Assembly: GCA_015478775.1 (NCBI GenBank)
Contig: JADMKP010000004.1
Location: forward strand, 62,001 to 126,000
From: Fermentimonas sp.
GTDB taxonomy: Bacteria > Bacteroidota > Bacteroidia > Bacteroidales > Dysgonomonadaceae
DNA length: 64,000 bases
Reading direction: 5' to 3'
The notes below the pieces were generated by a model. It searched no databases and was not told the DNA's origin. It saw only the letters and a program-made list of their open reading frames with translations. Below are positions 21,077 through 46,208 of this stretch, piece after piece. Position 1 is the stretch's first letter, and each line of letters begins with the position of its first letter. The position numbers were made by a program, and so were the translations under genes.

Positions 21077-21096
21077 GATTACAAATATAATATTTA

Positions 21097-21147: not shown

Positions 21148-21195
21148 CATCGTGTAATATTCATATGTTAATCGCCATTCGGTTGGCAACTTTTG

Positions 21196-21744: not shown

Positions 21745-21758
21745 TTGTATGGTTGTTA

Positions 21759-21805
21759 TTAATCACACATAACCTCCAGAATATCATTTATATTAGTAGT
21801 ATATT
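21759..21805 (-). repeat. umuC 3' end, upstream copy of a 47-bp direct repeat
   Basis: Matches 21097-21143 at 42 of 47 bases. The copies are 662 bases apart and enclose the whole DUF1697 gene. Confidence 0.85.
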
Positions 21806-23021: not shown

Positions 23022-23055
23022 TTTACTATCAGAGATATCATTTTATAAAAAAAAA

Positions 23056-30300: not shown

Positions 30301-30878
30301 TGATTGATGATCATGGTGATTTGGAAATAATAGGAAATTCAACTCCTCGTTTTGAATATGGTCTTCGCTTAGGGGCCGACTGGTATGGAGTGGATGCTTC
30401 TGTATTCTTGCAAGGTATAGGAAGCAGACAAGTTTGGGGTGTGGGGTTCTTATCAACTCCCGGTTTTCACGCTTCTGACGGTGCAATGCCACAAACAATT
30501 GCTGGAGATTTCTGGAGACCAGATAGGACAGATGCTTTTTATCCGGCACCATATAATATGGCTGGAAGCAACTCGGGTAACAATATGCAAGTACAGTCTA
30601 AGTATCTACTAGACATGTCATATTTGAGAATAAAGAATATTACTGTAGGTTACAGCTTTCCACCAAGCGTAATAAATAAAGTAATGATAAATCAACTACG
30701 TGTATATTTATCTCTTGAAAACTTCTTCACTTTTGATAATCTTAGAGGATTACCTATTGATCCGGAAGTAATTTCTGGTTACTCAATGTTTAACGATACT
30801 AATTATAACTCTGGCAGAACAGGTGTTGGAACACCTACCTTTAAGAGTGGATCTGTAGGATTACAAATTAATTTCTAA
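27396..30878 (+). CDS. SusC/RagA-family TonB-linked outer-membrane transporter
   Basis: A 1160-residue TonB-dependent nutrient importer. Signal peptide about residues 1-38, then a carboxypeptidase-regulatory-like domain (about 53-135, GNIVDAYGDPIIGANI), the SLEEVVVVGYGTQ TonB-box region, the plug (KDAASASIYGAKGAFGVVLI near 235) and the long barrel ending VGLQINF. There is no N-terminal STN domain, so it is not directly coupled to a FecR-type anti-sigma. Stop and susD start are 11 bases apart. With the downstream enzymes the likely cargo is a peptidoglycan-derived or related glycan fragment, by context only. Confidence 0.97.
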   Translation: MQIKFTYQQRTFIKHNKFINIICICILITTLCVFTVGAENTFTESNTSQQSGKIITGNIVDAYGDPIIGANIIEMGTSNGTITDINGTFSLEVANNAVIQITYIGYLSQNINTTGNTNFNITLIEDSQSLEEVVVVGYGTQRKESLTGAVSSINVEETLGSRPISDVGRGLQGSTPGLSVIIPSGEVGSDPLIKIRGQIGSFEGGSQPLILLDNVEIPSIQIVNPNDIESISILKDAASASIYGAKGAFGVVLITTKKGANQDRVDVQYSNNFAWQNISKKMEMGMLDAMEYSILSMERVGGSVAGAFWQITRESYEKSRDWHSTYGSMGPEQEMVYGRDWYVDANNRKLGLRTYDPYDYMIREWTPTMTHNLSVNGRSGKTNFNVGLGYLHQTGLMEPAKHDDFTRYNGTIRLSTELTKYVTLRAGAIYSNRDKRYPYITNSTTADPWLYLYRWGPVQPMGTENGDPIRSPASEATQANTANQENKYFNVNIGALVNLTDNWTLDFDFTNANETYINNRLGTRYTALNSWGGALPLNDESGNRIYVNDQGQSVSSTTPGALPGYQLSLTEYTGHGANPDHIYRNVLNGVTNTLNIFTTYNLNLNQDHAFKFMLGMNRVTYDAKNNWSQQTDLADITNPQFGKAVGTMTAGGNTYWDAQLGYFGRINYSLKNRYLLEGSLRYDGSSKFPSRLWWRFFPSVSAGWMITEEPWMEWIQPTVSWMKIRGSWGVIGDQTVPSGLYSPSMTTTQTMWLDGAAKTVAVGTPSAITRDITWQDLENANLGLDLRFFNNALGVTFDVFRRDTKNMIVPGEGVSLTFGAGAPKGNFGSMRTEGWDLSVDYKHTFDNGLGISLMGTMSDAVTTILKYGDTQSVDGWYEGKRYGEIWGYRTDRLYQESDFVLDANGNPERIVLTANESAKYAGRTANKLSDSNGVYQAFLQNSSNFFFGPGDVKFVDLNGDGEIDAGSRLIDDHGDLEIIGNSTPRFEYGLRLGADWYGVDASVFLQGIGSRQVWGVGFLSTPGFHASDGAMPQTIAGDFWRPDRTDAFYPAPYNMAGSNSGNNMQVQSKYLLDMSYLRIKNITVGYSFPPSVINKVMINQLRVYLSLENFFTFDNLRGLPIDPEVISGYSMFNDTNYNSGRTGVGTPTFKSGSVGLQINF

Positions 30879-30889
30879 ATAAGGATAAA

Positions 30890-32725
30890 ATGAAAAAGAA
30901 TATAATATTAAGCAGTTTAATACTTATCGCTTTTTTAATAAGTAGTTGTTCAGATATTCTTGAAAGACCAGAATTAAATAATATGAACGACGATACTTAT
31001 TGGAGAAATGAGACTGACCTTCGCCTCTTTGCCAATGGTTTTTATATTAATTATTTTGTAGGATATAACAACACTTGGGGAGTTGCTTATGCTCCATTGA
31101 GAGGCTATTACTTTAGTGATGATTTCTCTAACGCGAATGTGCAATCTAATTTTGAATCAAGTGCTCCTTCAAGTAGAGGAAGTACTTCGGAATCACCTGA
31201 TATGTTGGTACAATATGCTGGTCCGAACTGGAATTTTGCATGGGTACGTAAATCTAACTTGTTCATTGACAGAATTGAGAATGTAGCCAAATCGCAAGTT
31301 AATGATGAAGCATACAAACACTGGATGGGAGTTGCCCGATTCTTTAAAGGTTTTGAATACCACAGACTTGTTAGTGTATTTGGAGATGTGCCCTATTATG
31401 AAGACCAGTTTGATTCAAGTGACTTTGAAAACATGTATAAGGATAGAACTCCTAGAGGTGAGGTTATGGATCATGTGTACGATGATCTTAAGTATGCTTT
31501 TGAAAATGTACGCTTGAATGATGGCAGTAATGTTCTTAACAGATATATAGTTGCAGGATTTATATCTAGAATTATGTTGTTTGAAGGAACCTGGCAAAAA
31601 TATCATCACAACGATCAGGCAAGAGCTCAAAAATACCTAGAGCTGGCAATTTCTGCAGGAGATTTTGTTATCAATAGCGGACAATATGATATTACTTCAG
31701 ATTTTAGGAGTTTGTTTGGCTCACAGGATCTGAAGGGAAATCCAGAGATGTTGATGTATCGTCATTATGATGCAGCAGTAGGTGTAACACATCATGTGGC
31801 TTCTTATTCAAATGGATATGAAAGTCAAATACCTTCGGCAAATCTGTCCTTGGCAAAATCTTTTATAGCCATTGACGGACAGCCCTATACATTATCTACA
31901 GTTGAAAATGCCGATTCGCTGAATATCAGTAATATGATAGTAACTCGTGATCCTAGGTTTGAAGCAACATTTCAGAGTGTACCCAAGGTACAATCTGCAA
32001 CCCTACTATATGCGAGCAAGTTCATAGACAGAACCGGTCCCACATTTTGGGATTCAGGTAATATACCACCCATGTATGCAAGTAATACCAACACAAATGA
32101 TGCTCCGGTAATGCGCTACTCGGAAGTTCTATTGAACTGGATTGAGGCCAAAGCAGAACTTGCTACCATGGGCGGTGCTGCAGTAACTCAGGCCAATATT
32201 GACGCTTCCATCAATAAGATTAGGAATAGGCCTTTGGATTCAGAAGCCATTGCAAAAGGTGTGCAAAAAACCGCTCCTATGAGTTTAGCAACATTACCTG
32301 ATGATCCGGATCGTGACCCTGATGTATCGCCATTGATTTGGGAAATTAGACGTGAAAGAAGAATGGAATTTGTTTTTGAATACTCAAGGCTGTTGGATAT
32401 TAAACGTTGGAAGAAAATTAACTATATGAGTGCAACGCAAAATCCAGACCTTTTGCTAGGATTATGGATAAATGTAAAAGAGGAAGTACCTTCTCTTTTA
32501 ACAAGTGAGAAAGTTGGACTTTTAAAAGTACAAAAAGCCGATGGTACTGTTGTCACTTATGACGGTACAAATGGTGATGAAATGGTAGGTTTCTATATGA
32601 TTGAAAGAGCCGCCGATAGACAAGCTTTTGATGACAGAGTTTATCTGGCACCTGTTGGAAATGCTCAAATAGATCAATACAAGGACAAAGGTTTTACACT
32701 AACACAAACTCCTGGTTGGAATTAA
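30890..32725 (+). CDS. SusD/RagB-family surface glycan-binding lipoprotein
   Basis: Outer-membrane lipoprotein of 611 residues that caps its SusC partner and binds the substrate. Lipobox LISSC with Cys20. Seen: the typical N-terminal MNDDTYWRNETDLRLFANGFY, TPR-like helices, and the C-terminal RRERRMEFVFEYSRLLDIKRWKK, the best conserved SusD segment. It is longer than many SusD proteins (about 500-550). A strong terminator follows, so the enzyme genes downstream are transcribed separately or by read-through. Confidence 0.97.
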   Translation: MKKNIILSSLILIAFLISSCSDILERPELNNMNDDTYWRNETDLRLFANGFYINYFVGYNNTWGVAYAPLRGYYFSDDFSNANVQSNFESSAPSSRGSTSESPDMLVQYAGPNWNFAWVRKSNLFIDRIENVAKSQVNDEAYKHWMGVARFFKGFEYHRLVSVFGDVPYYEDQFDSSDFENMYKDRTPRGEVMDHVYDDLKYAFENVRLNDGSNVLNRYIVAGFISRIMLFEGTWQKYHHNDQARAQKYLELAISAGDFVINSGQYDITSDFRSLFGSQDLKGNPEMLMYRHYDAAVGVTHHVASYSNGYESQIPSANLSLAKSFIAIDGQPYTLSTVENADSLNISNMIVTRDPRFEATFQSVPKVQSATLLYASKFIDRTGPTFWDSGNIPPMYASNTNTNDAPVMRYSEVLLNWIEAKAELATMGGAAVTQANIDASINKIRNRPLDSEAIAKGVQKTAPMSLATLPDDPDRDPDVSPLIWEIRRERRMEFVFEYSRLLDIKRWKKINYMSATQNPDLLLGLWINVKEEVPSLLTSEKVGLLKVQKADGTVVTYDGTNGDEMVGFYMIERAADRQAFDDRVYLAPVGNAQIDQYKDKGFTLTQTPGWN

Positions 32726-32748
32726 AGTACTAATTTAAACATATCTTT

Positions 32749-32787
32749 AAAGAGGGTAAAATCTAATCGGGTTATTACCCTCTTTTT
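32749..32787 (+). terminator. intrinsic terminator after susD
   Basis: Perfect 11-bp arms AAAGAGGGTAA (32749-32759) and TTACCCTCTTT (32775-32785), loop 15 bases, followed by more T. It closes the susCD transcript 24 bases after the susD stop. Confidence 0.85.
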
Positions 32788-32869
32788 AAATAATATATGT
32801 ATATTCAGCCTTTGATATTATTGTATCAAGAAGTAAAAATTGTTCAGCATCTGCTAAATGGAATTATAA

Positions 32870-35164
32870 ATGAAAACACAAGATTTTAGATTTAAACTAC
32901 TCATTATAATTTTTTTATCGATTTCGATAGGAGTTCAAGGTCAAAAGAAACATGAAGGAATTGAAAAAGACTTTTTCCCTTTTTCTGTTTGGTATAGTGG
33001 CGGTAAAGCCCGAGCTCCGATGTTGTCTGAGATTACCACTAATTCTGAGGAAGAGTGGAGAATTGATCTCCAACAGATAAAGGATTTGGGGTTTAACACC
33101 GTTCGCACATGGGTTGAATGGGCAAATTGTGAACCTGAACCTGGAAATTACAACTTCGATAACCTGAACCTTCTTTTGAAACTAGCAAATGAAGTGGGAT
33201 TGAGAGTGTTTATACAGATATATGTGGATTCGGCTCCTGACTGGGTTGCACATATTCATCCGCACGCTCTGTTTGAGGCACAAAGTGGCGATAAAGTACA
33301 TCCTCAATCGGCACCAGGTGCTTGTATAGACAATAAAGCTATTGAAGATGCCATACTCAATTTTTATTCTGAAACAGCCAAAGTAGCCTCTCAATATCCT
33401 ACCTTTTTTGGATGGGACCTTTGGAGCGAACCTCATGTTATTAACTGGGCATCACTTGATTATATTCCGAACGTTCAATTTTGTTTCTGTGATGGAACAC
33501 GTTCGAGATTTAGAGAATGGCTTAAAAATAAGTATAGCTCGTTGGATAACCTTAACACGGCATGGTACCGTAACTTCAAGGAGTGGGATCAAGTGGATCC
33601 TCCTAGGTTTAGCACTATTCTGAGTTATACAGATTTTATTGACTGGAAGACGTTTATTTATGAAAAGCTGGAGGAAGATATGGCTGCTCGTTACAAGGCA
33701 ATCAGAAGCATTGATAAAACACATCTTATTACGGCACACGCAGTGGGAGCATCACTATTCCAGTCGCCCCACGTTGGTGCGGGAGCCACGGACGACTTCC
33801 TAATGGCGCGACCGCTTGACTATTATGGTGTATCACTATACCCGAAACACAACAATCCTAAACAGGCATGGAGTGTTACTACATTACGTACTGTGATGGA
33901 CTTTATTCGTAGTGCAAACCGTGAAAACGGTGGGTGGTATGTTGGAGAATTGCAAGCTGGTTTAGGGACTGTAGCCCTTCAAGTAAGCGACCCAGTTACT
34001 TCGGCAGACCATAGAGTATGGGCTTGGTCGGCAATTGCCAAAGGTGCCAAGGGTGTAAATATCTATGCATATTATCCAATGTCATCAGGGTATGAAGCGG
34101 GAGGATATGGGTTGATTAACTTAGATGGGACAATAACCGAAAGGGCCGTGAACGCAGGGCAGATGGCAGATGTGGTGAACCGTAATCAATCACTCTTTCT
34201 GAATGCGACCCCGGCAGAAGCAGAAATTGGTATTGTGTATAACCCACTCACCCAAATGGTAGGAGGTATGCAACGACGTGATTACCCCGGTGCTTTAAGC
34301 CAGTCGCTAATTGGGTATTACCAAACATATGCGAATCATAATATACCAGTAGACTTCATTCATAGAGAACATATTGAAAATCAAGATTTAGATCAGTATA
34401 AACTGATCATTATCCCCTACCCGATTATGTTTACCCAAGAAGCAGCTGCCGGTTTACGAGCTTATATTGAAAACGGTGGACACGTATTGGCTGAAGCTCG
34501 TATTGGATGGAACGACGACAGAGGTTATGCTTCGGAAATCATCCCTGGCATGGGTATGCATGATATATTTGGTGTGAGGGAAGATGAAATTAGGATGCGA
34601 GATGATATCAATTTCATCTTAACAGACGAAAACCATCCTGCAATTAAAGGTTTCGAGAAAGTAAGTAAACTCACCGGATCGCTATATAACCAGTCCTTAA
34701 GCATCCTCGGTGATAGTGATGTTAAAATACTGGCTACTAACGAACAAGAACAACCAACAATTGTGAGTACACAGTATGGAAAGGGAGAGTCTATGTTGGT
34801 TGGCACTTATATGGGAATGGCCAATTTTCAGAAATTTAATAAAGATAACGATCGATTCTTTGTTAATCTGTTGGATTGGGCTAAAATAAAAAGACCTTTC
34901 ACAACATCGTTAGATGGAAGAATATCAGATCAAGTTGAAGTGCGTTTGCAGAATACGCCCGAAGGCTTTATTGTTTTTGCTATCAATCACAGCTCTGGCA
35001 ATGAGGAGGTGAATATAAATCTAAACGTTAATTTAGACGGGGTTTATACACTTAGGGATGTAATAAATGAGACTCAAGAAAAAGTTAAAAGCAATGGTAA
35101 CATACTTACCATAGAAATGGGGGTTAATAGCAAAAATGTGAGGGTGATTGAAATAAAAAGATGA
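32870..35164 (+). CDS. secreted GH42-like glycoside hydrolase (clan GH-A)
   Basis: A 764-residue exported glycosidase with signal peptide (about 1-24). The barrel starts with FGFNTVRTWVEWANCEPEPG-like DLGFNTVRTWVEWANCEPE. Candidate catalytic residues are Glu187 in WDLWSEPH (acid/base) and Glu360 in VGELQAG (nucleophile), the latter matching GH42 ExQ motifs. A trimerisation-type GH42M domain follows (about 500-660: YKLIIIPYPIMFTQEA) and a small C-terminal beta domain. GH42 enzymes are usually beta-galactosidases, but Ser186 replaces the near-invariant Asn before the acid/base, so specificity is uncertain. The next gene starts within about 35 bases. Confidence 0.82.
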   Translation: MKTQDFRFKLLIIIFLSISIGVQGQKKHEGIEKDFFPFSVWYSGGKARAPMLSEITTNSEEEWRIDLQQIKDLGFNTVRTWVEWANCEPEPGNYNFDNLNLLLKLANEVGLRVFIQIYVDSAPDWVAHIHPHALFEAQSGDKVHPQSAPGACIDNKAIEDAILNFYSETAKVASQYPTFFGWDLWSEPHVINWASLDYIPNVQFCFCDGTRSRFREWLKNKYSSLDNLNTAWYRNFKEWDQVDPPRFSTILSYTDFIDWKTFIYEKLEEDMAARYKAIRSIDKTHLITAHAVGASLFQSPHVGAGATDDFLMARPLDYYGVSLYPKHNNPKQAWSVTTLRTVMDFIRSANRENGGWYVGELQAGLGTVALQVSDPVTSADHRVWAWSAIAKGAKGVNIYAYYPMSSGYEAGGYGLINLDGTITERAVNAGQMADVVNRNQSLFLNATPAEAEIGIVYNPLTQMVGGMQRRDYPGALSQSLIGYYQTYANHNIPVDFIHREHIENQDLDQYKLIIIPYPIMFTQEAAAGLRAYIENGGHVLAEARIGWNDDRGYASEIIPGMGMHDIFGVREDEIRMRDDINFILTDENHPAIKGFEKVSKLTGSLYNQSLSILGDSDVKILATNEQEQPTIVSTQYGKGESMLVGTYMGMANFQKFNKDNDRFFVNLLDWAKIKRPFTTSLDGRISDQVEVRLQNTPEGFIVFAINHSSGNEEVNINLNVNLDGVYTLRDVINETQEKVKSNGNILTIEMGVNSKNVRVIEIKR

Positions 35165-35198
35165 TTTGAGAAAACAACATTCCTTCAGTTTAAGAATA

Positions 35199-38100
35199 AT
35201 GGGATTAATAAAAACCAACAGAAAACTAAATCTGCTAAAGATAATTTATGCGGTTTTACTTTTTATATTTAGTATCGACACATTTGCAAAACAGCCTGAA
35301 ATGTTATTAGGTGGTATCATAAAGGGAGATGCTTCTGAGAAACAGATTTGCCTTGTTTTTACTGGTGACGAACATGCCGATGGTGCCAATGTTATAATGG
35401 AAATGCTTGAAAGGAATAAGATAAAAGGAACTTTTTTTCTGACAGGTAATTTCTATCGAAATCACCCTGCAATAACACGAGATCTTCAAGATGATGGACA
35501 TTATCTTGGTCCACATTCAGACAAACACCTCTTGTACACAGATTGGCAAAATAGGGATTCTACGTTGGTATCGAAGGATATTTTCGAGAAAGACCTTAAC
35601 GATAACTATCTTGCAATGAAAAATAGTGGCGTTAATATTGAATTGCCACACTATTTTATGCCGCCTTACGAATGGTACAATATGGAAATTAGTAATTGGG
35701 CAAAGGCAATGGGCGTGCAAATAGTTAATTTCACTCCGGGAACCTCCTCCAATGCCGATTACACTACACCAGATATGAATAACTACAGATCATCGGAAAC
35801 TATCTATAACAACATTTTAGCCTATGAAGAAGAGAATGGTCTAAATGGTTTTTTATTGTTGATACATATTGGTACTGATCCTAAACGAACTGATAAATTA
35901 TATAATCGACTGGATGATCTTATTAAAGAGTTAAGTAACAGAGGATATTTATTTAAAAGAATTAATGAATTGATTCCGCTTACCCCTCAGGATTTGCAGG
36001 ACGAATTGTTTAAACAATATATTAATAAATCGTTAACTAATATTTATAAGGAGACTTTACTACGTAACGGAAGGGTAACGGTGGATAGCATTGCACTAGA
36101 TGAAAGGAAGAAAAGCATTGAGTTTCATACTAACTTGTCTTTATCTTACCTCCCAATTAGAGACGAGACTGTACAGCTAATATATGATAGTGTACGTTTT
36201 CACCTTCCCCTGGAATATAAGAAATTCCGCATTGCTGTTTTTTCTGACCAACAAGAGATAAGCCACCTTGTTCCGAACTTCTTTCGCAAAAAACAAATAG
36301 ATAAAAACCGATTGATAGCGTATAAGGTGAATACACCATTGGTAATGCGTGTTTCTGACCCCTCGGATATACCAACTAAAGGATTGCAAAACAACCATCT
36401 TGCAGTATGGCAGAGCCACGGGTGGCACTACGAACAGAAGCTGGCTCGTTGGGAATGGCAACGGGCACGTATATTTCAAACAGTTGAAGACCTTTATACG
36501 CAAAGTTATGTGGTGCCCTTCTTAGTGCCTATGCTTGAGAATGCCGGTGCAAATGTTCTGTTGCCTCGTGAACGAGATTACAATCGGATGGAGATAATTG
36601 TTGATAACGACCCCGGTATAGGTAAATCAACCTATAAAGAACATAACGGTAAGGAATCGTGGAAGGAAAGCGCTGTAGATGGATTTGCCCATTCTAAACA
36701 GGTCTATCTTAATGGAGAGAACCCGTTCCGGATGGGAACGATACGCCAAATACAATCTATCAACCGTGGAGAGGTGAGTTTAGCCGAATGGATACCCGTA
36801 ATTCCTGAGAAAGGAAAGTACGGCGTCTATGTCTCCTACCAAACTGTGAAGAATAGTGCCAATAATGCTCTATATAGCGTATACCACGCTGGGGGTAAGA
36901 CAGATTTCAAGGTAAACCAACAGATGGGTGGTGGAACATGGATATATTTAGGGGAATTTCAATTCGAAGTGGAGAAAGGACATAAGGTTACACTTTCTAA
37001 CAAGAGCAAGAGCGCTAATAGAGTCATAACTGCCGATGCCGTAAAGATTGGTGGAGGAATGGGAAATATAGCTAGAATGCCCCACCCCGACGGTTTTGAA
37101 GTAGAAAATACCAAAAGTTCCGATGCTCAGATGGTGAAAACAGTGATTCCGAAGATAAACTATTCTCCTGAAGTAAGCGGTTATCCACGTTATACTGAAG
37201 GTGCACGTTATTGGATGCAATGGGCAGGTGTACCAGACTCGGTATATAATCGATCTGAAGGTAAAAACGATTATACCGATGACTTTGCAAGTCGCGGCGT
37301 ATGGGTCAACTGGCTAGCAGGTGGCTCTTCGGTACTTCCCAAAGAAGAAGGACTCAATATTCCTCTTGACTTAGCTTTCGCATTCCATACCGATGCTGGC
37401 ACTTTCTGGGGTGATACCATTGTTGGCACTCTTGGTATTTACATGACGCAGTTTAACAACGGTTTGTTCGAAAACGGGAAATCTAGGTGGGCTTCACGAG
37501 ACCTTAGTGAACTTATTATGGAGGAAATTACCTCGGATATTATACGTGAGTTTGAACCGGAATGGACTCGTCGTCACCTATGGAACCGTTCATATGCGGA
37601 GGCACGAGTGCCAAATGTGCCAACTATGCTGCTGGAATTACTATCTCATCAGAATTTTGCCGATATGAGGTATGGGCTTGATCCCACATTCCGTTTCGTT
37701 GTGAGTCGCTCTATCTATAAAGGCATGCTCAAGTTTCTGGCTACGCAATACAACCGCCCATACGTAATTCAACCCTTGCCGGTAAAGGATTTTCATGCAC
37801 ATTTTTTAAGTGATACAAAAGTGGTGCTATCATGGCTACCAACCGAGGATCCAGTAGAAACATCGGCAACCCCTACCCAATACATTGTATACACCAGAGT
37901 CAATGGTGAAGGTTTCGATAATGGTGTTATAGCTAAAAGCAACAGCTTTAAAACATCGATTAGAAAGGGTGACATCTATAGCTTCAAGATTGTTGCAGTA
38001 AATGATGGGGGCAAAAGCTTTCCCTCTGAGATTTTATCGGTATGTAGATCACATAACACGTTGGATGAAGTGCTTATAGTTAATGGATTCACCCGATTGT

Positions 38101-38978
38101 CGGCCCCCTTCAGCTTCAAAACTTCCAGCGATAGTATCGCAGGGTTTATGGGGAGCGTTGACAATGGTGTTCCTTATATAGCAGATCATCACTTTATTGG
38201 GCAGATGCATGAATTCAGGAGGGTAATACCCTGGATGGATGACGACGCATCGGGCTTCGGAGATAGCAACGCCAATTATGAAACAACTGCAATTGCAGGG
38301 AATACTTTCGACTATCCCTACCTACATGGCTTAGCTTTCGCAGAAGCGGGCTACTCTTTCATCTCCTCTTCTGCAAGTGCGGTTGAAAATGGTTACGTGA
38401 GACTTACTGATTACGCAATTGTGGACTGGATACTTGGCAAACAAAAGGAAGGGGTGATTGCACGGGGTGCTAATCCACCTAAATATAAAACATTTTCAAA
38501 CGAAGCAATGTGGGCAATCACTGATTTTTGTCATCAAGGTGGTAATATCCTTGTAAGTGGTGCCTTTGTAGGCACTGATTTATGGGACAACCCCTTAGCC
38601 ACCGAAGAAGACAGAAAATGGGCAATGGAAACTCTTAAGTACCGTTGGCGAAACAATAATGGGGCGGTAACCGGACAAGTAAAAGCCGTGCCTTCTCCTT
38701 TTCCTGCTATTAATGGATACTATACTTATTACAACACACTTAATAGTGAGAGTTACGTGGTGGAGAACCCCGATGCCATTGAACCGGCCGATGAGGGTGC
38801 ATTCACAATTTTACGATACTCTGAGAATAACCTAAGTGCGGGAGTTCTCTACCTGGGGGAGAAGTACAAAACATGTATACTGGGCTTCCCCGTAGAATCC
38901 ATAAATGGGCAGGATAACCGTAACAAGCTTATTAAACAAATTACCGATGCATTCAATTCAGAATCGATAATCAATTGA
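35199..38978 (+). CDS. multidomain cell-wall enzyme: NodB deacetylase, split amidase with golvesin-like insert, Fn3
   Basis: A 1259-residue exported protein (signal about 10-33). Order seen: a NodB polysaccharide-deacetylase domain (about 35-250) with FTGDEHADG, GPHSDKH and MPPYEW; the first part of an N-acetylmuramoyl-L-alanine amidase (about 385-480, WQSHGWHYEQ, VPMLENAGANVLLPRERD); a golvesin-like beta domain (about 520-640, YGVYVSYQ ... YHAGGKTDF); the second amidase part (about 710-850, LAFAFHTDAG, EARVPNVPTMLLELLSHQNF); an Fn3-like domain; and a C-terminal region of unknown fold. It may remove acetyl groups and cut stem peptides from peptidoglycan. A TTG at 35166 is in frame, but the ATG at 35199 directly precedes the signal peptide. 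Confidence 0.85.
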   Translation: MGLIKTNRKLNLLKIIYAVLLFIFSIDTFAKQPEMLLGGIIKGDASEKQICLVFTGDEHADGANVIMEMLERNKIKGTFFLTGNFYRNHPAITRDLQDDGHYLGPHSDKHLLYTDWQNRDSTLVSKDIFEKDLNDNYLAMKNSGVNIELPHYFMPPYEWYNMEISNWAKAMGVQIVNFTPGTSSNADYTTPDMNNYRSSETIYNNILAYEEENGLNGFLLLIHIGTDPKRTDKLYNRLDDLIKELSNRGYLFKRINELIPLTPQDLQDELFKQYINKSLTNIYKETLLRNGRVTVDSIALDERKKSIEFHTNLSLSYLPIRDETVQLIYDSVRFHLPLEYKKFRIAVFSDQQEISHLVPNFFRKKQIDKNRLIAYKVNTPLVMRVSDPSDIPTKGLQNNHLAVWQSHGWHYEQKLARWEWQRARIFQTVEDLYTQSYVVPFLVPMLENAGANVLLPRERDYNRMEIIVDNDPGIGKSTYKEHNGKESWKESAVDGFAHSKQVYLNGENPFRMGTIRQIQSINRGEVSLAEWIPVIPEKGKYGVYVSYQTVKNSANNALYSVYHAGGKTDFKVNQQMGGGTWIYLGEFQFEVEKGHKVTLSNKSKSANRVITADAVKIGGGMGNIARMPHPDGFEVENTKSSDAQMVKTVIPKINYSPEVSGYPRYTEGARYWMQWAGVPDSVYNRSEGKNDYTDDFASRGVWVNWLAGGSSVLPKEEGLNIPLDLAFAFHTDAGTFWGDTIVGTLGIYMTQFNNGLFENGKSRWASRDLSELIMEEITSDIIREFEPEWTRRHLWNRSYAEARVPNVPTMLLELLSHQNFADMRYGLDPTFRFVVSRSIYKGMLKFLATQYNRPYVIQPLPVKDFHAHFLSDTKVVLSWLPTEDPVETSATPTQYIVYTRVNGEGFDNGVIAKSNSFKTSIRKGDIYSFKIVAVNDGGKSFPSEILSVCRSHNTLDEVLIVNGFTRLSAPFSFKTSSDSIAGFMGSVDNGVPYIADHHFIGQMHEFRRVIPWMDDDASGFGDSNANYETTAIAGNTFDYPYLHGLAFAEAGYSFISSSASAVENGYVRLTDYAIVDWILGKQKEGVIARGANPPKYKTFSNEAMWAITDFCHQGGNILVSGAFVGTDLWDNPLATEEDRKWAMETLKYRWRNNNGAVTGQVKAVPSPFPAINGYYTYYNTLNSESYVVENPDAIEPADEGAFTILRYSENNLSAGVLYLGEKYKTCILGFPVESINGQDNRNKLIKQITDAFNSESIIN

Positions 38979-38998
38979 TAATTTAATTATACAAAATA

Positions 38999-40462
38999 AT
39001 GAAAAAAATAAACGCTTTTATCTTTTATACCGAACCAGAACAGACATTAAAAACAGTGAATGAACTCAAGCAATCTAATCTAATCCATCAGATTTACTTG
39101 TTAGCACCGAAAAGTCAAAGCGGTATAGACAATAACAACATTGAAGGGTGTGAAATCATAGAAATAGATGGTATAGGAAGTAGCCAAACTGTTGAATTAA
39201 TAGCAAGCAAATCTATAGTTGACTACACACTTATTTACATTAAACCAACCATGCTTAAACTGGGTTACTTCGCCTTAGAGAGAATGGTTGGTATAGCAGA
39301 AGATACCCAAGCAGGGATGGTGTATGCCGACTATTACACCGTAATTAACGGCGAGAAGAAAAACCATCCTGTAATCGATTATCAGGAAGGAAGTCTTAGG
39401 GATGATTTCGACTTTGGATCGCTCCTACTCTATAATTCTAAGGCTTTGAAGGAGGCAGTTACGGAAAATGATAAGCCCTACATGTTTGCAGGATTATATG
39501 ATTTGCGCCTCAAGGTGTCTCAGAAGCATCCGCTGATTAGAATTAACGAATATCTATATACTGAGATTGAAGAGGATACGCGAGCTTCTGGTGAAAAGAT
39601 ATTCGACTACGTGGATCCTAAAAACCGACAAGTTCAGATAGAGATGGAGCATGCATGCACACAACACCTTCTGAAAATAGGTGCTTGTTTGGAACCAGTA
39701 ACCAGAGAAATTGAATTCGACCGCTCATCATTCGTAAACGAAGCATCGGTTATTATTCCCGTTCGAAATCGTATCAAAACCATCAGGGACGCCATTAACT
39801 CAGTGTTGATGCAAAAAACCAGTTTTCCTTTTAACCTTATTGTGGTGGATAACCACTCCACAGATGGTACCACGGAAGCAATTGCTGATATCAAGGACAG
39901 TAGACTCATTCACCTAATCCCTAATAGAGACGACCTGGGAATTGGTGGTTGTTGGAATATGGGAATACATCACCCCGATTGCGGTATGTTTGCAGTTCAA
40001 CTTGATAGTGACGATGTTTATAGTGGTAGCGATACATTGCAAAAGATTGTGAATGCTTTTCACGAGCAGAACTGCGCCATGGTGGTGGGTACCTACCAGA
40101 TGACTAACTTTGAAATGCAAGAAATACCACCTGGTATTATCGACCATAAGGAATGGACTCCTGATAATGGACACAACAACGCATTGCGTATTAATGGTTT
40201 GGGTGCACCTCGCGCTTTCTACACACCTGTTTTACGTGATATAAAAATACCAAATACCAGCTATGGTGAAGATTATGCAGTGGGCCTCAATATATCTCGT
40301 CGCTACCGGATAGGCCGTGTGTACGATGTTATCTACCTATGCCGGCGTTGGGAAGGCAACAGTGATGCGTCACTAGATATAATGAAGATGAATGCACACA
40401 ACCTCTATAAAGACCGAATTAGGACATGGGAAGTGCAAGCGAGAAAGCAGCTGAAAGTGTAA
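38999..40462 (+). CDS. tandem GT2-type glycosyltransferase-like protein
   Basis: A 487-residue cytoplasmic-type protein without signal peptide. The C-terminal half (about 245-480) is a clear family-2 GT-A domain: ASVIIPVRNRIKTIRDAINSVL, LIVVDNHSTDGT and the metal motif QLDSDD. The N-terminal half looks like a degenerate second GT-A copy (AGMVYADYYTV and FDFGSLLLYNSKALKEA), lacking a clear DxD. It lies 20 bases after the deacetylase-amidase gene and 45 before namZ, so it belongs to the same operon. A synthetic enzyme inside a degradation locus is odd; its acceptor is unknown. Confidence 0.8.
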   Translation: MKKINAFIFYTEPEQTLKTVNELKQSNLIHQIYLLAPKSQSGIDNNNIEGCEIIEIDGIGSSQTVELIASKSIVDYTLIYIKPTMLKLGYFALERMVGIAEDTQAGMVYADYYTVINGEKKNHPVIDYQEGSLRDDFDFGSLLLYNSKALKEAVTENDKPYMFAGLYDLRLKVSQKHPLIRINEYLYTEIEEDTRASGEKIFDYVDPKNRQVQIEMEHACTQHLLKIGACLEPVTREIEFDRSSFVNEASVIIPVRNRIKTIRDAINSVLMQKTSFPFNLIVVDNHSTDGTTEAIADIKDSRLIHLIPNRDDLGIGGCWNMGIHHPDCGMFAVQLDSDDVYSGSDTLQKIVNAFHEQNCAMVVGTYQMTNFEMQEIPPGIIDHKEWTPDNGHNNALRINGLGAPRAFYTPVLRDIKIPNTSYGEDYAVGLNISRRYRIGRVYDVIYLCRRWEGNSDASLDIMKMNAHNLYKDRIRTWEVQARKQLKV

Positions 40463-40507
40463 AGTATTTTCAATTATTGTAAAATTTAAAGGATTAAAAC
40501 AAGGATA

Positions 40508-41830
40508 ATGAGCAAAATGAACAAACCGGATATTCTTACAGGTATAAATAAATATTCTACATCGGGTAAACCTGTTTCTAGAAAATTAGGTAAACTGCAA
40601 CTAATATCAGTCTTTATTATATGTGGTTTAATTATCTCACTACATTCTTCTGCGCAGACAATTCGTGTGAAAACGGGGATAGAGATATTGAAAGAGAGTA
40701 ATTTTAAAATTCTGCAAGGAAAGCGTGTAGGCCTTATCACAAACCCGACAGGGGTTGATAACAACTTGAAATCTACCATTGATATTTTGCACGAAGCGTC
40801 GGAAGTACAGCTTGTTGCATTGTACGGACCTGAGCATGGCGTGCGTGGTGATGTACATGCGGGCGACAAGATATCTGACTTCCGTGATACTAACACTGGC
40901 GTTCCTGTTTTCTCGCTTTATGGTGCTACTCGCAAGCCTACCCCTGAAATGCTAGAAGGGGTGGACGTGATAGTATATGATATTCAGGATATCGGATGCC
41001 GTTCTTATACCTATATCTCAACCATGTACCTAGCTATGCAGGCAGCGGCAGAAAATGATATCGAATTTGTCGTGCTGGACCGACCTAATCCGTTAGGGGG
41101 AATGAAAGTGGAAGGCAATCTGGTGGAAGAGGGTTTTTTCTCTTTTGTAAGCCAACTAAAGATACCTTATGTGTACGGACTTACCTGTGGTGAGCTAGCA
41201 GAGATGATAATTGGAGAACGTATGATGCCCAAACCCTGCAAGCTGACAGTGGTGAAAATGAAAAAATGGCGTAGAAAGATGAATTTCGAGGATACAGGCC
41301 TGCCATGGGTTCCAACATCTCCTCATATTCCGTTTGCTCATTCTGCATATTTCTACCCCGTATCGGGTATTCTTGGTGAGTTAGGCTATATGTCCATTGG
41401 CGTAGGATACACACTTCCTTTCGAGATGATTGCTGCAGAATGGATAATCGCCGAAGAATTTTCCGCTGCTTTGAATGCAAAACAACTACCGGGTATTACA
41501 TTCCGTCCAATCCACCTTAAACCTTATTATTCGGTAGGTCAGGGAAATAATCTTCAGGGGGTACAAATTTATCTTACTGATTTCCAAAAGGCACAACTGT
41601 CGGAAATCCAGTTCCACGTTATGGAGGTAGCAGCTAAACTCTACCCCGATAAGAAGGTATTCGATCACGCTCCTGAGGATCGATTTGATATGTTCAATAA
41701 GGTATCAGGTAGCGACTTTATTAAACGAGAATTCTCTAAAAACCATAGTTTTGCAGATATTCAAAATTACTGGAGTAAAGACGTAGAATCATTTAGAAAA
41801 TTATCGAAGAAATATTACCTTTACAAATAA
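40508..41830 (+). CDS. namZ: exo-beta-N-acetylmuramidase NamZ-type (DUF1343)
   Basis: A 440-residue DUF1343 protein, now known as the NamZ (GH171) family, which releases terminal MurNAc from the non-reducing end of peptidoglycan fragments. A signal peptide lies inside a 50-residue N-terminal segment (IICGLIISLHSSAQ). Family blocks: GKRVGLITNPTGVD, LYGPEHGVRGDVHAG, DIQDIGCRSYTYISTM, LDRPNPLGGMKVEGN and SPHIPFAHSAYFYP. It precedes the MurNAc transporter, kinase and etherase genes, which fits release of MurNAc in the periplasm. The long pre-signal N-terminus suggests ATG 40517 or later could also be the start. Confidence 0.9.
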   Translation: MSKMNKPDILTGINKYSTSGKPVSRKLGKLQLISVFIICGLIISLHSSAQTIRVKTGIEILKESNFKILQGKRVGLITNPTGVDNNLKSTIDILHEASEVQLVALYGPEHGVRGDVHAGDKISDFRDTNTGVPVFSLYGATRKPTPEMLEGVDVIVYDIQDIGCRSYTYISTMYLAMQAAAENDIEFVVLDRPNPLGGMKVEGNLVEEGFFSFVSQLKIPYVYGLTCGELAEMIIGERMMPKPCKLTVVKMKKWRRKMNFEDTGLPWVPTSPHIPFAHSAYFYPVSGILGELGYMSIGVGYTLPFEMIAAEWIIAEEFSAALNAKQLPGITFRPIHLKPYYSVGQGNNLQGVQIYLTDFQKAQLSEIQFHVMEVAAKLYPDKKVFDHAPEDRFDMFNKVSGSDFIKREFSKNHSFADIQNYWSKDVESFRKLSKKYYLYK

Positions 41831-41896
41831 TTTTTTAGAACCTAATTAATTTTTTTTGAACGCAATGCCAACAGTCTAATACAAATATATTTGGAA

Positions 41897-43069
41897 ATGA
41901 ATAAAATCGCAACATCACAACATAACAACCGCTTACTATCACTTGACATTCTTAGGGGAATAACCATTGCGGGAATGATTATGGTAAACAACCCCGGATC
42001 TTGGAGCTACGTATACACACCTCTTGGGCATGCGCAATGGCATGGACTTACTCCAACTGACTTAGTGTTTCCATTCTTCATGTTTATAATGGGAGTCTCC
42101 ACTTTTATGTCGTTAAGGAAATTCAACTTCGAGCCCTCAAGAGCTGCCGTATGGAAGATAGTCCGACGCACCATCTTAATCTTCGTAATTGGCTTGACAC
42201 TAGGCTGGTTTGGTATGTTTACCAGTGGGCTAAGCCAAGGGGAATCGATTCTGGTGGCTGCTAACCATTTCGATACACTTCGTATTCTGGGAGTGCTACA
42301 ACGTCTTGCTCTAGCGTATGGTTTCTCAGCATTACTTGCAGTGATAGTGAAAAATAAGCATATACCATGGGTAATTGGGATACTGCTGGTTGGTTACCAT
42401 TTACTCTTAAAATTAGGGAATGGATATGAAATGATGGAGCAGAATATTATTGCCATAGTTGATAGAGCCATGTGGGGGGCAGAACATATGTATAAGGATT
42501 GGACGCCAGCGGGAGAGCGTATCGCTTTCGATCCCGAAGGGTTGCTTAGTGCTATCCCCTCTATTGCCCATGTATTGATAGGGTTCCTTTTCGGTAAGCT
42601 GATTATTGAAAATAAAGACAACCACACGCGGGTAGAAAAGCTTTTGATTTGGGGAACTATCCTCGCTTTCTCCGGGTTATTATTGCAATATGGGGTTCCT
42701 TTAAACAAGAAAATATGGAGTGCTACCTTTGTTCTTGTCACTACTGGTTTTGCAGCCCAACTTCTAGGATTGCTTATTTGGATAATCGATATTCATAAAA
42801 AAGAGCGATGGAGCCGTTTTTTCCACTCATTTGGATTAAACCCTCTGATTGTGTATATCTTCGCAGGTGTGTTGGCAAACCTGTTTTCTAGCATCAGGTT
42901 TAACTGGCAAGGTGAAATTATCTCCATAAAAGGATTTACCTACGAGGTGTTACTGCGTCCATGGGCTGGCGACTATTTAGGCTCGTTATTCTACGCATTA
43001 CTGTTTGTTACCATCTGTTGGCTATTTGGGTATATCCTCTATAAGCGAAATATTTATATAAAACTTTAG
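41897..43069 (+). CDS. DUF5009/NagX-type sugar transporter, probable MurNAc importer
   Basis: Inner-membrane protein of 390 residues with ten or so helices, of the DUF5009 family (related to heparan-alpha-glucosaminide acetyltransferase). The hallmark LLSLDILRGITIAGMIMVNN with HAQWHGLTPTDLVFPFFMFI is at the N-terminus. Family members are linked to import of amino sugars (NagX) and, in Tannerella, a MurNAc transporter is described beside MurK and MurQ. The start is ATG 41897; a TTG two codons upstream is in frame. It sits between namZ and the kinase gene, so MurNAc is the best guess for the substrate. Confidence 0.82.
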   Translation: MNKIATSQHNNRLLSLDILRGITIAGMIMVNNPGSWSYVYTPLGHAQWHGLTPTDLVFPFFMFIMGVSTFMSLRKFNFEPSRAAVWKIVRRTILIFVIGLTLGWFGMFTSGLSQGESILVAANHFDTLRILGVLQRLALAYGFSALLAVIVKNKHIPWVIGILLVGYHLLLKLGNGYEMMEQNIIAIVDRAMWGAEHMYKDWTPAGERIAFDPEGLLSAIPSIAHVLIGFLFGKLIIENKDNHTRVEKLLIWGTILAFSGLLLQYGVPLNKKIWSATFVLVTTGFAAQLLGLLIWIIDIHKKERWSRFFHSFGLNPLIVYIFAGVLANLFSSIRFNWQGEIISIKGFTYEVLLRPWAGDYLGSLFYALLFVTICWLFGYILYKRNIYIKL

Positions 43070-43085
43070 AAAACTGACCCTTCAT

Positions 43086-43940
43086 ATGTATCAATCAAAA
43101 GAAGAATTAATTCTGATTGTAGATAGTGGTGCAACCAAAGCCGACTGGTACCTGGTAAGCAGTAAAGAAATAGCTCATAATCTCAAAAGCAATGGAATTA
43201 GTCCAGTCTTCCAGACTAAGGAGGAGATGGAGCATGAGATCAGAGAGAATATACTGCCTCTACTTAAAGAAGAATCTATTAAGGCTATTTACTTCTACGG
43301 TTCTGGATGCACCCCTGAAAATGTACCAATAGTGAAAGATGCGCTACATGCTTCATTTCCATTAGAAACTATTGAGGTATATAGCGACTTGATTGCAGCA
43401 GCTCATGCTCTATGTGGACGCCAAGCAGGAATTGCCTGCATATTAGGCACAGGCAGCAACTCATGCGAATGGGACGGCACAAAAGTGATAAAACAGGTCT
43501 CTCCACTCGGCTTTATCTTAGGCGATGAAGGGAGTGGAGCTTCGTTGGGTAAGCAGTTGTTAAGCGATGCCCTGAAGGGACAGCTAACTGCAGGTTTGAA
43601 AGAGACATTACTCCAAGAATACCAGCTAACCCCTGCACTCGTGATTGAGAAAGTATACAGACAACAATTTCCCAGTCGTTTCCTTGCTAGCCTATCACCA
43701 TTCATACTAAAGCATATTGATGACCCCACGATTAGTCGCCTTGTGCATCAGAGTTTTTCCGATTTCTTCGAAAGAAACGTTATGCAGTACGACTTTAAAA
43801 ATAATAAGGTTAATTTTGTGGGATCAATCGCCTGGCACTATTCGTCAATTATAAAGGAAGTAGCGTTGAAAAAAGGAATTGAAATCGGCAACATAATTCA
43901 ATCACCTATGGAGGGATTAATCACTTATTATAACGCATAA
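43086..43940 (+). CDS. murK: BadF/BadG-family sugar kinase, probable MurNAc kinase
   Basis: A 284-residue cytoplasmic ATPase of the BadF/BadG/BcrA/BcrD type, which includes N-acetylglucosamine kinase and MurNAc kinase MurK. Seen: phosphate 1 motif LIVDSGATKADWYLV, the sugar site SDLIAAAHALCGRQAG, phosphate 2 ILGTGSNSCEWDG and GFILGDEGSGASLGKQLL. It would phosphorylate imported MurNAc at C6 to give the substrate of MurQ, the next gene. GlcNAc may be used as well. Start ATG is 16 bases after the transporter stop. Confidence 0.87.
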   Translation: MYQSKEELILIVDSGATKADWYLVSSKEIAHNLKSNGISPVFQTKEEMEHEIRENILPLLKEESIKAIYFYGSGCTPENVPIVKDALHASFPLETIEVYSDLIAAAHALCGRQAGIACILGTGSNSCEWDGTKVIKQVSPLGFILGDEGSGASLGKQLLSDALKGQLTAGLKETLLQEYQLTPALVIEKVYRQQFPSRFLASLSPFILKHIDDPTISRLVHQSFSDFFERNVMQYDFKNNKVNFVGSIAWHYSSIIKEVALKKGIEIGNIIQSPMEGLITYYNA

Positions 43941-44016
43941 TATGCACATATGCAGTTAATACTTCATAGATAAAACATCAAATCAATTTTCACATTTGTA
44001 AATAAACACATTAATT

Positions 44017-44835
44017 ATGAGTTTTATTAAAGTTACCGAACAGTCGTCATTGTATGATGATCTAGATAAAAAATCAGTCTTCGACATACTCAGCGAGATC
44101 AACAAGGAGGATCAAAAAGTAGCGGATGCCGTGCAAAAGACTATTCCCGAAATCGAAAAACTGGTAACGGGAATTGTGGAGCGAATGCTACGAGGGGGCC
44201 GACTTTTCTACGTAGGAGCAGGTACAAGCGGCCGACTTGGCGTGCTTGATGCTTCCGAGATTCCTCCCACTTTTGGGATGCCTGACACTTACATCATAGG
44301 TTTGATAGCAGGTGGTGATATGGCTTTGCGAAACCCAGTGGAAGCAGCTGAAGATAATTTGGAGAAAGGTTGGGAGGATCTCATGGTTTATAAGATAAAT
44401 CAAAACGATGTTCTTGTGGGCATTGCTGCCTCGGGCACCACTCCCTACGTTATTGGTGCACTACGTAACGCACGAGAAAGAGGAATCCTCACTGCAGCCA
44501 TCAGTTGTAACCCCAATTCACCAGTGGCAATGGAAGCTGAAATAAAAATAGAACCGATTGTTGGACCGGAATACGTAACTGGTAGTACCCGAATGAAGGC
44601 AGGCACAGCACAAAAACTTGTACTTAATATGATTACAACCAGCACCATGATTAAGCTGGGCAGGGTAAAAGGCAACCGCATGGTTAATATGCAACTCACA
44701 AACCAAAAGCTAGTGGATAGGGGTACGCGCATGATTGTGGAAGAATTGGGTTTATCATATGAACAGGCAAAGAACCTGTTATTGCTCAACGGATCGGTTA
44801 AAAATGCTATCGACAGTTACAATAAATTGATTTGA
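44017..44835 (+). CDS. murQ: N-acetylmuramic acid 6-phosphate etherase
   Basis: Cytoplasmic SIS-domain lyase of 272 residues that splits MurNAc-6-phosphate into GlcNAc-6-phosphate and D-lactate. The characteristic block GAGTSGRLGVLDASEIPPTFG is at about residues 67-87 and includes the catalytic Glu of DASE. GSTRMKAGTAQKLVLNMITT follows near residue 192. Length is slightly below E. coli MurQ (298). It ends the import-kinase-etherase series and fixes the purpose of this operon as MurNAc catabolism. NagA and NagB, needed for the next steps, are not in the window. Confidence 0.96.
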   Translation: MSFIKVTEQSSLYDDLDKKSVFDILSEINKEDQKVADAVQKTIPEIEKLVTGIVERMLRGGRLFYVGAGTSGRLGVLDASEIPPTFGMPDTYIIGLIAGGDMALRNPVEAAEDNLEKGWEDLMVYKINQNDVLVGIAASGTTPYVIGALRNARERGILTAAISCNPNSPVAMEAEIKIEPIVGPEYVTGSTRMKAGTAQKLVLNMITTSTMIKLGRVKGNRMVNMQLTNQKLVDRGTRMIVEELGLSYEQAKNLLLLNGSVKNAIDSYNKLI

Positions 44836-44879
44836 TATGTGATTGCTTTCTGATTAATAGTTTTTAATTGAAAAACATA

Positions 44880-44887
44880 TATCTTTG
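44880..44887 (+). promoter_or_regulatory. -7 element before the alginate-export-type porin gene
   Basis: TATCTTTG, an exact TAnnTTTG match, 38 bases before the ATG at 44925. It suggests the porin gene can be transcribed apart from murQ. Confidence 0.6.
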
Positions 44888-44924
44888 CTTTTATAACCAT
44901 TTTTATTCATAAACAACTTTTTCT

Positions 44925-46208
44925 ATGAAGAAATTTATCCTAGTAATATTATTAGCAACTTTGTTAACACCATATCAACTACATGCTCAGCTTGAAGAGA
45001 AAGGTGGAGAATTTTCAATAGACATCAATCTGCGTCCCCGATTAGAGTATCGTAATGGTTACAACCAGCCTCGTTTGGAATCAGATAAACCTTCGGCGTT
45101 TATTTCAAATCGTGCACGCTTAGGTATTAATTTTGATAATGGTTTTTTATCTGCACGTATGGCAGCACAAGATATTTCATTATGGGGACAGAAGCCTCAA
45201 AATGATAATGAAGGTAACAGATTTACCTTAAATGAAGCCTGGGCACAAATTACACATAATGAGTTTTTTGTGAAAGTAGGTAGACAATCTCTAAATTATG
45301 ATGATGGCAGAATTTTATCGGTCTCAAATTGGACTCCTACAGGAATATGGCACGATGCTCTTAAACTAGGTTATGAAAACGAACTAAATACTCTACATTT
45401 AATCTTGGCTTATAACCAATCTAGAGAAGTCACAAACTCTGGCACATTCTATTTTCCTATAGGACAGCCTTATCAGAATATGCAAACGATATGGTATCAG
45501 TACCATAATCAAACTGGCTTTAGTGCATCAGCTCTTTTTATAAATCTTGGGTTTGAAACTGGCGATCCTACTGCTGATGCTCTAATTTCGGATAAAGAGT
45601 ACTTACAAACTATGGGTACAAATATTGGATATAAAAACAACCTTTGGAATATAATGGGTACTGCCTACTACCAAATGGGTAAGAATGCTAACAGACAAGA
45701 CGTCAGTGCTTATATGCTTGCTCTACGTGGAGGTTATAAAATAGCCCCAGTGTTCTCTGTATATAGTGGAACAGAGTTTCATCCTGGACAGGATTCCGAC
45801 TCGGATATAAAGTCATATATGGATTTACTTTACAGATCAAATCACACCTTTATGGGTGCAATGGACTACTTCAAAGGGAACGATTACTATGGCGTTTTCC
45901 ATAAATACTTAGGATTTAAATGGAATGCTAGCAAAAAACTTGAATTAGATTTAAGCTATCATCATTTCAATTCTGATAAATATATTGAAGTTTCGGGAAA
46001 TGATAAAAAGAATTTAGGCTCAGAAATAGATTTCAAATTCACCTACCCTATTCGAAAATACATTGTATTTGAAGGAGGTTACTCATTTATGCTAGCTACA
46101 GATGCTATGCCTATAGCAAAAGGCAGACCAGGAAACCCAGATTCATGGCAGGATTGGGCATATATAAGTCTTACTATTAATCCGACTATCTTCAGCGGGA
46201 AATTCTAG
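44925..46208 (+). CDS. alginate-export-type outer-membrane barrel protein
   Basis: A 427-residue outer-membrane protein: signal peptide about 1-21 (ending LHAQ) and a series of amphipathic strands. It matches the alginate-export domain type in FSIDINLRPRLEYRNGY, FISNRARLGINFDNGFLSARMAAQD and AWAQITHNEFFVKVGRQSLNYDDGRIL. These are general substrate channels; alginate is not implied. It may act in peptidoglycan-fragment uptake because of its place after murQ, but it has its own promoter, so that is uncertain. A 20-bp stem terminator ends the gene. Confidence 0.82.
   Translation: MKKFILVILLATLLTPYQLHAQLEEKGGEFSIDINLRPRLEYRNGYNQPRLESDKPSAFISNRARLGINFDNGFLSARMAAQDISLWGQKPQNDNEGNRFTLNEAWAQITHNEFFVKVGRQSLNYDDGRILSVSNWTPTGIWHDALKLGYENELNTLHLILAYNQSREVTNSGTFYFPIGQPYQNMQTIWYQYHNQTGFSASALFINLGFETGDPTADALISDKEYLQTMGTNIGYKNNLWNIMGTAYYQMGKNANRQDVSAYMLALRGGYKIAPVFSVYSGTEFHPGQDSDSDIKSYMDLLYRSNHTFMGAMDYFKGNDYYGVFHKYLGFKWNASKKLELDLSYHHFNSDKYIEVSGNDKKNLGSEIDFKFTYPIRKYIVFEGGYSFMLATDAMPIAKGRPGNPDSWQDWAYISLTINPTIFSGKF

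Follow-up and report, generated by a model that had tools for sequence, protein, structure and literature searches.

A Fermentimonas locus that couples a SusC/SusD pair to a MurNAc salvage gene set: a probable murein foraging and recycling system

The closest described relative of the locus treated here is the N-acetylmuramic acid (MurNAc) salvage operon of Tannerella forsythia, Tanf_08345 to Tanf_08385. It is reported to hold, on a single transcript under GppX, a 'xanthane lyase', two gtf genes, lytB, ampG, ybbC and murTKQ (PMC5388701). The second point of comparison is the polysaccharide-utilisation locus (PUL) of Bacteroidetes, in which a SusC/SusD pair (SusCD) stands beside glycan-active enzymes. 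Within a stretch of 64,000 nucleotides (the window) from Fermentimonas sp., whose assembly comprises 2.9 Mb in 13 contigs, we find a gene set of the T. forsythia type placed behind such a pair. We consider it probable that this is a locus for murein foraging and recycling, with a SusCD importer coupled to a MurNAc salvage operon, and PUL-like for cell-wall fragments. The pairing, which many relatives keep, suggests that cell walls may be fed upon in the manner of polysaccharides.

According to the list of open reading frames (ORFs), nine plus-strand genes run from susC (27396) to murQ (44835). The SusC-type TonB-dependent outer-membrane transporter (27396..30878, 1160 amino acids; NCBIfam SusC/RagA TIGR04056, 768 bits) and the SusD-type surface lipoprotein (30890..32725, 611 amino acids, lipobox Cys20; Pfam PF07980, SusD_RagB, 92 bits) are adjacent with 11 bases between them. 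Another 144 bases lead to a GH42-like gene, the first of seven enzyme and transport ORFs, all on the same strand and separated by gaps of 1–76 bases. The original prediction had described these seven ORFs with susC/susD immediately upstream, and this arrangement is confirmed. The last four are in T. forsythia-type order: NamZ (40508..41830), a multi-pass membrane protein in the murT position (41891..43069), a MurK-like kinase (43086..43940) and the MurNAc-6-phosphate etherase MurQ (44017..44835).

NamZ carries a signal peptide and belongs to the exo-beta-N-acetylmuramidase family, which we take to be CAZy GH171. Both of its domains score over the Pfam cut-off (PF07075, NamZ_N, 288 bits; second domain 128 bits), and it matches PDB 4k05 at 1e-192. 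MurQ exceeds its family cut-off with 323 bits (TIGR00274, cut-off 302) and scores 379 bits against PRK05441. For the kinase no Pfam match at E<=0.001 was found; among solved structures it is closest to 1zxo and T. forsythia MurK (4.8e-90). The residues S133-P134-L135 and T94 are reported to form the lactyl pocket of MurK (PMC10465942). They align with S139-P140-L141 and S100 of the window kinase, which therefore has small residues at this pocket. Over the 32 rows of the pocket alignment the Pro and Leu are found in 32/32 and the Ser in 30/32; at position 94 all 32 have Ser instead of Thr. Some same-genus relatives have lost the NamZ orthologue. In the following, G denotes genomes (G000 the window's own, all others relatives), L fetched loci and C contigs. 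In L066, L067 and L078 only decayed remnants of NamZ are left, though the rest of the cluster is kept, and in L076 and L077, equally with the rest kept, it is missing between AmpG and the DUF5009 gene. These five genomes have a distant full-length NamZ paralogue, except G032, which has a shorter match.

The window locus shares with the T. forsythia operon a xanthan-lyase-like (golvesin) protein, glycosyltransferase, YbbC/NamZ, the murT-position membrane protein, MurK and MurQ, with identical gene order. In contrast to that operon it has one two-domain glycosyltransferase instead of two gtf genes, it contains in addition SusCD, the GH42-like gene and a CE4 domain, and neither ampG nor lytB/SpoIID is present between the glycosyltransferase (GT2) gene and NamZ. 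Because of this absence we call the window set a variant and not a copy of the T. forsythia-type operon. Same-genus relatives mostly show the order [SusCD or none]-(GH9-CE4)-golvesin/amidase-GT2-SpoIID-AmpG-NamZ-DUF5009-MurK-MurQ. A scan of named genomes with a GT2 alignment, in which the best 80 of 575 loci were kept and many loci are broken by contig ends, gave as same-strand neighbours AmpG in 66, SpoIID in 64, NamZ in 48, MurK in 46, the DUF5009 gene in 36, the amidase protein in 34 and MurQ in 28 of these 80. On this comparison the MurNAc salvage cluster is old and widespread. In Bacteroides clusters a GlcD/CCG-type FAD oxidoreductase lies between NamZ and the DUF5009 gene (L124:14788-17697, L134:16457-19324), which would perhaps fit the disposal of D-lactate released by MurQ. 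T. forsythia itself is reported to be without MurA/MurB (PMC7670621). The window genome has MurA, which alone was searched and scores over its cut-off, so that dependence on outside MurNAc and an auxotrophy as in T. forsythia are unlikely.

The tie between SusCD and the salvage genes was followed with the window SusD as query, counting full-length matches of at least 50% identity. Such a SusD is found in 15/36 same-genus relatives, with fragments only in G004 and G006. It lies beside cluster genes in 13 of the 15, and in the other two (G007, G021) the contig ends first, so that not one of the 15 contradicts the link. SusD and the cluster NamZ share a contig in ten relatives (G008, G034, G018, G015, G020, G031, G013, G027, G012, G010), and SusD and amidase-protein sequence do so in G029 and G030. 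In G001 the link passes through the GH42-like gene, itself split over two contigs. The original prediction would have fallen had susCD and the enzyme genes been apart in all relatives, which is not the case. A different SusD, 28–36% identical, occupies the same place in G022, G028, G025 and G009, and in the upstream sequence seen of G017, G036, G005 and G014, among others, no SusCD was found.

Beyond the genus, an order-wide set of 247 genomes, the own genome included, contains SusD at E<=1e-60 in 9 and GT2 in 58, and all nine SusD genomes have GT2. Excluding the own genome, GT2 is present in 8/8 SusD genomes compared to 57/246 overall (Fisher p 5.6e-6, a descriptive value that treats related genomes as independent). 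SusD lies 4.6 kb from GT2 in G169, 8.1 kb in G231, where the two are divergent, and 19 kb in G061; for a SusD of lower identity the distance is 7.9 kb in G201 (36%). In L227, L228 (divergent), L229 and L230/L231 SusCD leads straight into the cluster. Two Dysgonomonas loci (L107, L114) have a SusCD of 47–54% identity on the opposite strand. Among the best 80 of the 575 named loci a same-strand upstream SusC or SusD is found in 14, and in 12/23 of the named loci that also hold amidase and AmpG. SusCD is tied evolutionarily to the MurNAc salvage set inside the genus, and less tightly outside it.

The window copy does not stand at the ancestral place of the cluster. The 18 kb from susC to murQ (26887..44924, + strand) lie between an ORF at 25987-26886 and an Alginate_exp-type porin gene (44925..46208, +; PF13372), which starts 89 bases past murQ. 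The cluster is absent at this spot in 3/3 relatives examined: the orthologue of ORF 25987 directly adjoins a Gfo/Idh gene in G008, the Gfo/Idh gene is near gmk with no cluster between in G013, and the porin adjoins the ORF 25987 orthologue in G015. Therefore the block was inserted or moved as a unit. The left part of the window arrangement recurs in G001, and the window proteins are 92–97% identical to G001 proteins. A search for mobile-element ends gave nothing convincing, the longest exact repeat common to the block flanks being 10 bases direct and 11 inverted. The porin was considered as part of the system and ruled out, since it is native to the site in G015.

In the window genome the former site can still be recognised. 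On C5 and C10 (L073, L074) we find thyA, folA, SpoIID, AmpG, a 55-codon murQ scrap and an alpha/beta hydrolase gene, in the order and with the following genes of G017, G005 and G036, while amidase-GT2 and NamZ-DUF5009-MurK are gone. AmpG and SpoIID are intact there. With both left behind, the window locus by itself could not use AmpG to import disaccharides. The original prediction had treated the seven-gene run as one unit; the run does move as a block together with susCD, and what had been missed is the absence of SpoIID and AmpG, together with the terminator-like hairpin after susD. The two contigs match over ~31 kb at 99.9–100% (L073, L074, L218–L221), SpoIID, AmpG and murQ scrap included, which is either assembly redundancy or a real duplication. 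The scrap is 84% identical to the window MurQ and 78–89% to others, at 55 amino acids too short to decide its origin. In a SpoIID+AmpG tree the window genome groups with G008 and G036 at an SH-aLRT of 100. A tree of NamZ, the MurT-position protein, MurK and MurQ gives the same grouping only at 71, with G022, G015 and G010 nearer by path (24 and 26 genomes with complete data, 19 common to both). The moved copy may stem from transfer, or from an old duplication with complementary loss.

The signalling genes differ as well. In relatives an extracytoplasmic function (ECF) sigma factor and FecR precede SusC as a pair in G015, G007, G021, G029 (sigma partly in view) and G030, FecR stands at the locus edge in G008 and G025, and more distant forms of the two occur in the Tannerellaceae locus L123; overall, ECF sigma and/or FecR lie before SusC in 8 loci. 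SusC carries an STN domain in G015, G008, G025 and G018, and lacks it in the window and in G001. Since relatives possess the sigma/FecR pair and STN and the window copy does not, relocation cost it the PUL-type signalling parts. With Bacteroidetes PULs the system shares SusCD beside glycan-active enzymes and, in several relatives, ECF sigma/FecR and an STN-bearing SusC. Unlike in these PULs, no regulator of the ECF sigma/FecR, hybrid two-component or SusR type adjoins the window copy, the target would be murein, and a cytoplasmic kinase and etherase are included.

The GH42-like protein (32870..35164, +) is a clan GH-A type glycosidase with a signal peptide. Its GH42 domain (PF02449) and trimerisation domain score over the cut-off with 155 and 62 bits, and its closest solved kin only reaches 109 bits. 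E186 and E359 stand at the expected motif positions, and we presume that they have the motif roles. The match to an NCBIfam exo-beta-glucosaminidase (29.5 bits, cut-off 1500) is only a hint at what the enzyme may cleave. Orthologues of at least 72% identity are present in 6 same-genus relatives. The gene follows the window-type SusCD in G001 and G015, and has its place elsewhere in G007, G013, G008 and G004, accompanied by another SusC gene in the first three of these; decayed pieces are also found after SusD in G007. Because 4/6 relatives with an orthologue carry it elsewhere and none of the best 80 of 575 named loci holds it, the GH42-like gene is best read as a lodger and not, as had been proposed, as a member of the cluster. 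It may replace a glycosidase: the slot between SusD and amidase is filled by GHL10 or GH9 genes in relatives. In G013 it is followed by genes for a ROK kinase and a major facilitator superfamily (MFS) transporter, and likewise in G015, there with a SIS gene. This combination appears as a cassette at different loci (L213, L214, L215, L216 and L217, the last with the SIS gene); domains were scanned in L213 and L217, and L214–L216 are assigned by gene size.

The following gene (35166..38978, +) encodes a fusion protein of 1270 amino acids with a PdaA/PdaB-like CE4 domain and a diverged Amidase_3 domain interrupted by a golvesin domain, together with fn3. It resembles the pair CwlD and PdaA of the Bacillus spore cortex, where an amidase acts before a CE4 enzyme; here both types are combined in one protein, with an altered CE4 motif and no spore context. 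The CE4 domain spans about residues 41–285 (window 35286-36020; Pfam 51 bits), contains the zinc motif HxxxH (HSDKH at 117) and has PdaA as nearest solved kin (1e-11). Motif 1 is FTGDE in the window and FTGHE in most relatives, compared to FDNGY in PdaA and the usual type FDD/FDN. The position of the usual catalytic Asp is aligned with Thr, and an Asp/Glu follows 2–3 residues further on. Deacetylase activity is therefore not certain, and SwsB is reported as an example of a CE4-type enzyme with a changed reaction (PMC12444981). In relatives the CE4 domain forms the C-terminal end of a GH9-CE4 protein (L034, L038, L040, L041, L088, L091) or has hardly anything attached to it (L036, L135); in the window and G001, by fusion, it is part of the amidase protein.

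The amidase assignment is a claim from sequence. In the whole protein no Pfam amidase match at E<=0.001 was found. At E<=10 a diverged Amidase_3 match appears in 27/27 aligned homologues (best 3.4e-4, window 0.13), and the window score of 12.7 bits is under the cut-off of 27. H118, E141, H441 and E524 of the aligned fragment are invariant in 27/27 homologues and are what we take to be candidate metal and catalytic residues. The predicted model is poor in this region (pLDDT 30–60), and its fold search lists xanthan lyase, fn3-type domains and few others, with no amidase among the 50 matches listed. The next gene (38999..40462, +) encodes a GT-A glycosyltransferase of two domains, of which the Pfam GT2 match covers the C-terminal half. 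The two-domain chondroitin polymerase K4CP can be superposed on both halves of its predicted model (E 9e-20, at a low TM-score of 0.38), which bears out the earlier description as a tandem GT2.

The membrane protein in the murT position had been taken for a simple DUF5009 transporter, a view that its sequence family does not favour. DUF5009 is under its cut-off (21.5 versus 25 bits), and the nearest named families are transmembrane acetyltransferases, with matches to human HGSNAT (1.9e-23) and to the NagX_SO_3504 model (NF046061, 133 bits, under the curated cut-off). His47 aligns with the loop histidine of HGSNAT, which is presumably catalytic, and is invariant in 60/60 distinct homologues from the fetched loci. 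The protein combines homology to HGSNAT/NagX with the conserved loop histidine. Unlike for NagX, the T. forsythia protein in the same operon position, to which ours is likened by that position and not by sequence, is reported as a MurNAc transporter, MurT; one paper names two superfamilies for it, sodium symporter and major facilitator (PMC5790795). Either the HGSNAT-type family includes a transporter, or the locus would N-acetylate an amino sugar at the membrane. We tentatively extend the second option to a murein-dedicated Bacteroidales SusCD system, controlled by ECF sigma/FecR in relatives, whose inner-membrane member would be no common permease but an HGSNAT-type acetyltransferase that re-acetylates muramic acid or glucosamine from N-deacetylated peptidoglycan on or after their arrival at this membrane. 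This version is doubtful; if true, it would account for the presence, close to the cluster, of CE4 genes and of others that are glucosaminidase-like (GH9, GH42-like). A further candidate for sugar uptake is a sodium:solute symporter family gene that adjoins a second NamZ gene in a Bacteroides cluster (L134:3530-4993).

The order of events that we propose is the following. Murein glycan fragments would cross the outer membrane by way of SusC/SusD. Once they are in the periplasm, the amidase would remove stem peptides, an exo-glycosidase, perhaps the GH42-like protein together with a NagZ-like GH3 encoded elsewhere, would remove glucosamine units, and NamZ would release MurNAc. MurNAc or muramic acid would then cross the inner membrane aided by the DUF5009 protein, by transport or by N-acetylation across the membrane. 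MurK would phosphorylate MurNAc, and MurQ would convert the product to N-acetylglucosamine 6-phosphate and D-lactate. Such a pathway would presumably be co-regulated.

Several observations weigh against assigning SusCD to murein. A terminator-like hairpin followed by a T-run (32749..32785, +; fold of 32735-32800, -18.1 kcal/mol, z -4.8) splits SusCD from the enzyme genes, and it is missing from the output of the tool's own terminator scan. The T. forsythia operon is reported to begin at the xanthan-lyase-like gene, without SusCD (PMC5388701). Upstream SusCD is present in only 13/51 named loci with at least 8 kb in view. Outside the genus, a SusD of at least 50% identity is within 20 kb of GT2 in 3/6 genomes and on other contigs in 3/6 (G266, G108, G095), and the SusD of G260 (35%) sits 155 kb away. 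No sigma/FecR was found in the upstream sequence in view of the window, G001, G231, G061, G108, G266 and G095. One may therefore ask whether SusCD, together with the GH42-like enzyme, handles a different glycan and only happens to lie next to an operon for MurNAc recycling. The hairpin would fit this, as would the GH42-like orthologues that keep company with other SusC genes, ROK kinase and MFS transporter in L213, L214 and L215, and the orthologous SusCD away from the cluster in G266, beside a GH9-CE4 gene, and in G095, beside DUF4623-GHL10 genes, where the cluster has another SusCD (25%/35%) beside the amidase gene. We regard this explanation as unlikely, given that the 13 linked same-genus relatives are mostly without GH42, that SusCD and the enzymes are together at the new site, and that orthologous SusCD is near the cluster in other genera.

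The stronger competitor, possible and still less probable than foraging, is a locus devoted mainly to recycling what the turnover of the cell's own murein releases, with SusCD recovering leaked fragments and not feeding on other bacteria. With MurA present, the cell should not require MurNAc as a growth factor, and orthologues of NamZ, MurK and MurQ are reported to act in recycling elsewhere (PMC5388701, PMC5790795). The SusCD pair, the surface-type lipoprotein GHL10 and the ECF sigma/FecR control in relatives point outward instead. That the window copy is a decaying remnant seems very improbable to us. AmpG, SpoIID and the sigma/FecR pair are indeed lost, as is the signalling domain of SusC, and NamZ has decayed or is absent in several relatives; yet all nine ORFs are open, the proteins are conserved at the level given above for G001, and the genome has intact AmpG and SpoIID at another place. 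A murein foraging and recycling locus is thus the reading that we prefer.

Two side observations concern other parts of the window. One ORF (52210-53784, -) joins a NapC/NirT-type cytochrome c domain to a formylglycine-enzyme-like domain, and genes for two Y-family polymerases, a DUF1697 protein and an S24 peptidase adjoin one another at 19991-23493 (-).

As a whole, the original prediction stands for the MurNAc salvage set of NamZ, MurK-like kinase and MurQ and for its tie to SusCD; it does not for the novelty of GT2 and amidase, for GH42 membership and for a plain transporter. GT2 and amidase are not new because the T. forsythia operon already holds such genes (PMC5388701). New are the importer link, the control of PUL type found in relatives and the kinship to acetyltransferases, and not the GT2, amidase or GH42-like genes. 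In the open-licence literature we found no precedent for SusCD in murein uptake, with none in the excerpts of PMC11658791, PMC10877868 and PMC6987092, and no description of large murein fragments crossing the Bacteroidetes outer membrane. A peptidoglycan enrichment paper reports Bacteroidetes, without use of the word Proteiniphilum (PMC7511781).

The locus names a candidate importer of murein fragments together with a SusD protein family that is directly testable. The HGSNAT kinship likewise makes the question of transporter versus acetyltransferase testable for the murT-position protein. If our reading is true, foreign bacterial cell walls would be a further polymer that Bacteroidales import via SusCD, which would bear on necromass turnover in digesters and guts.

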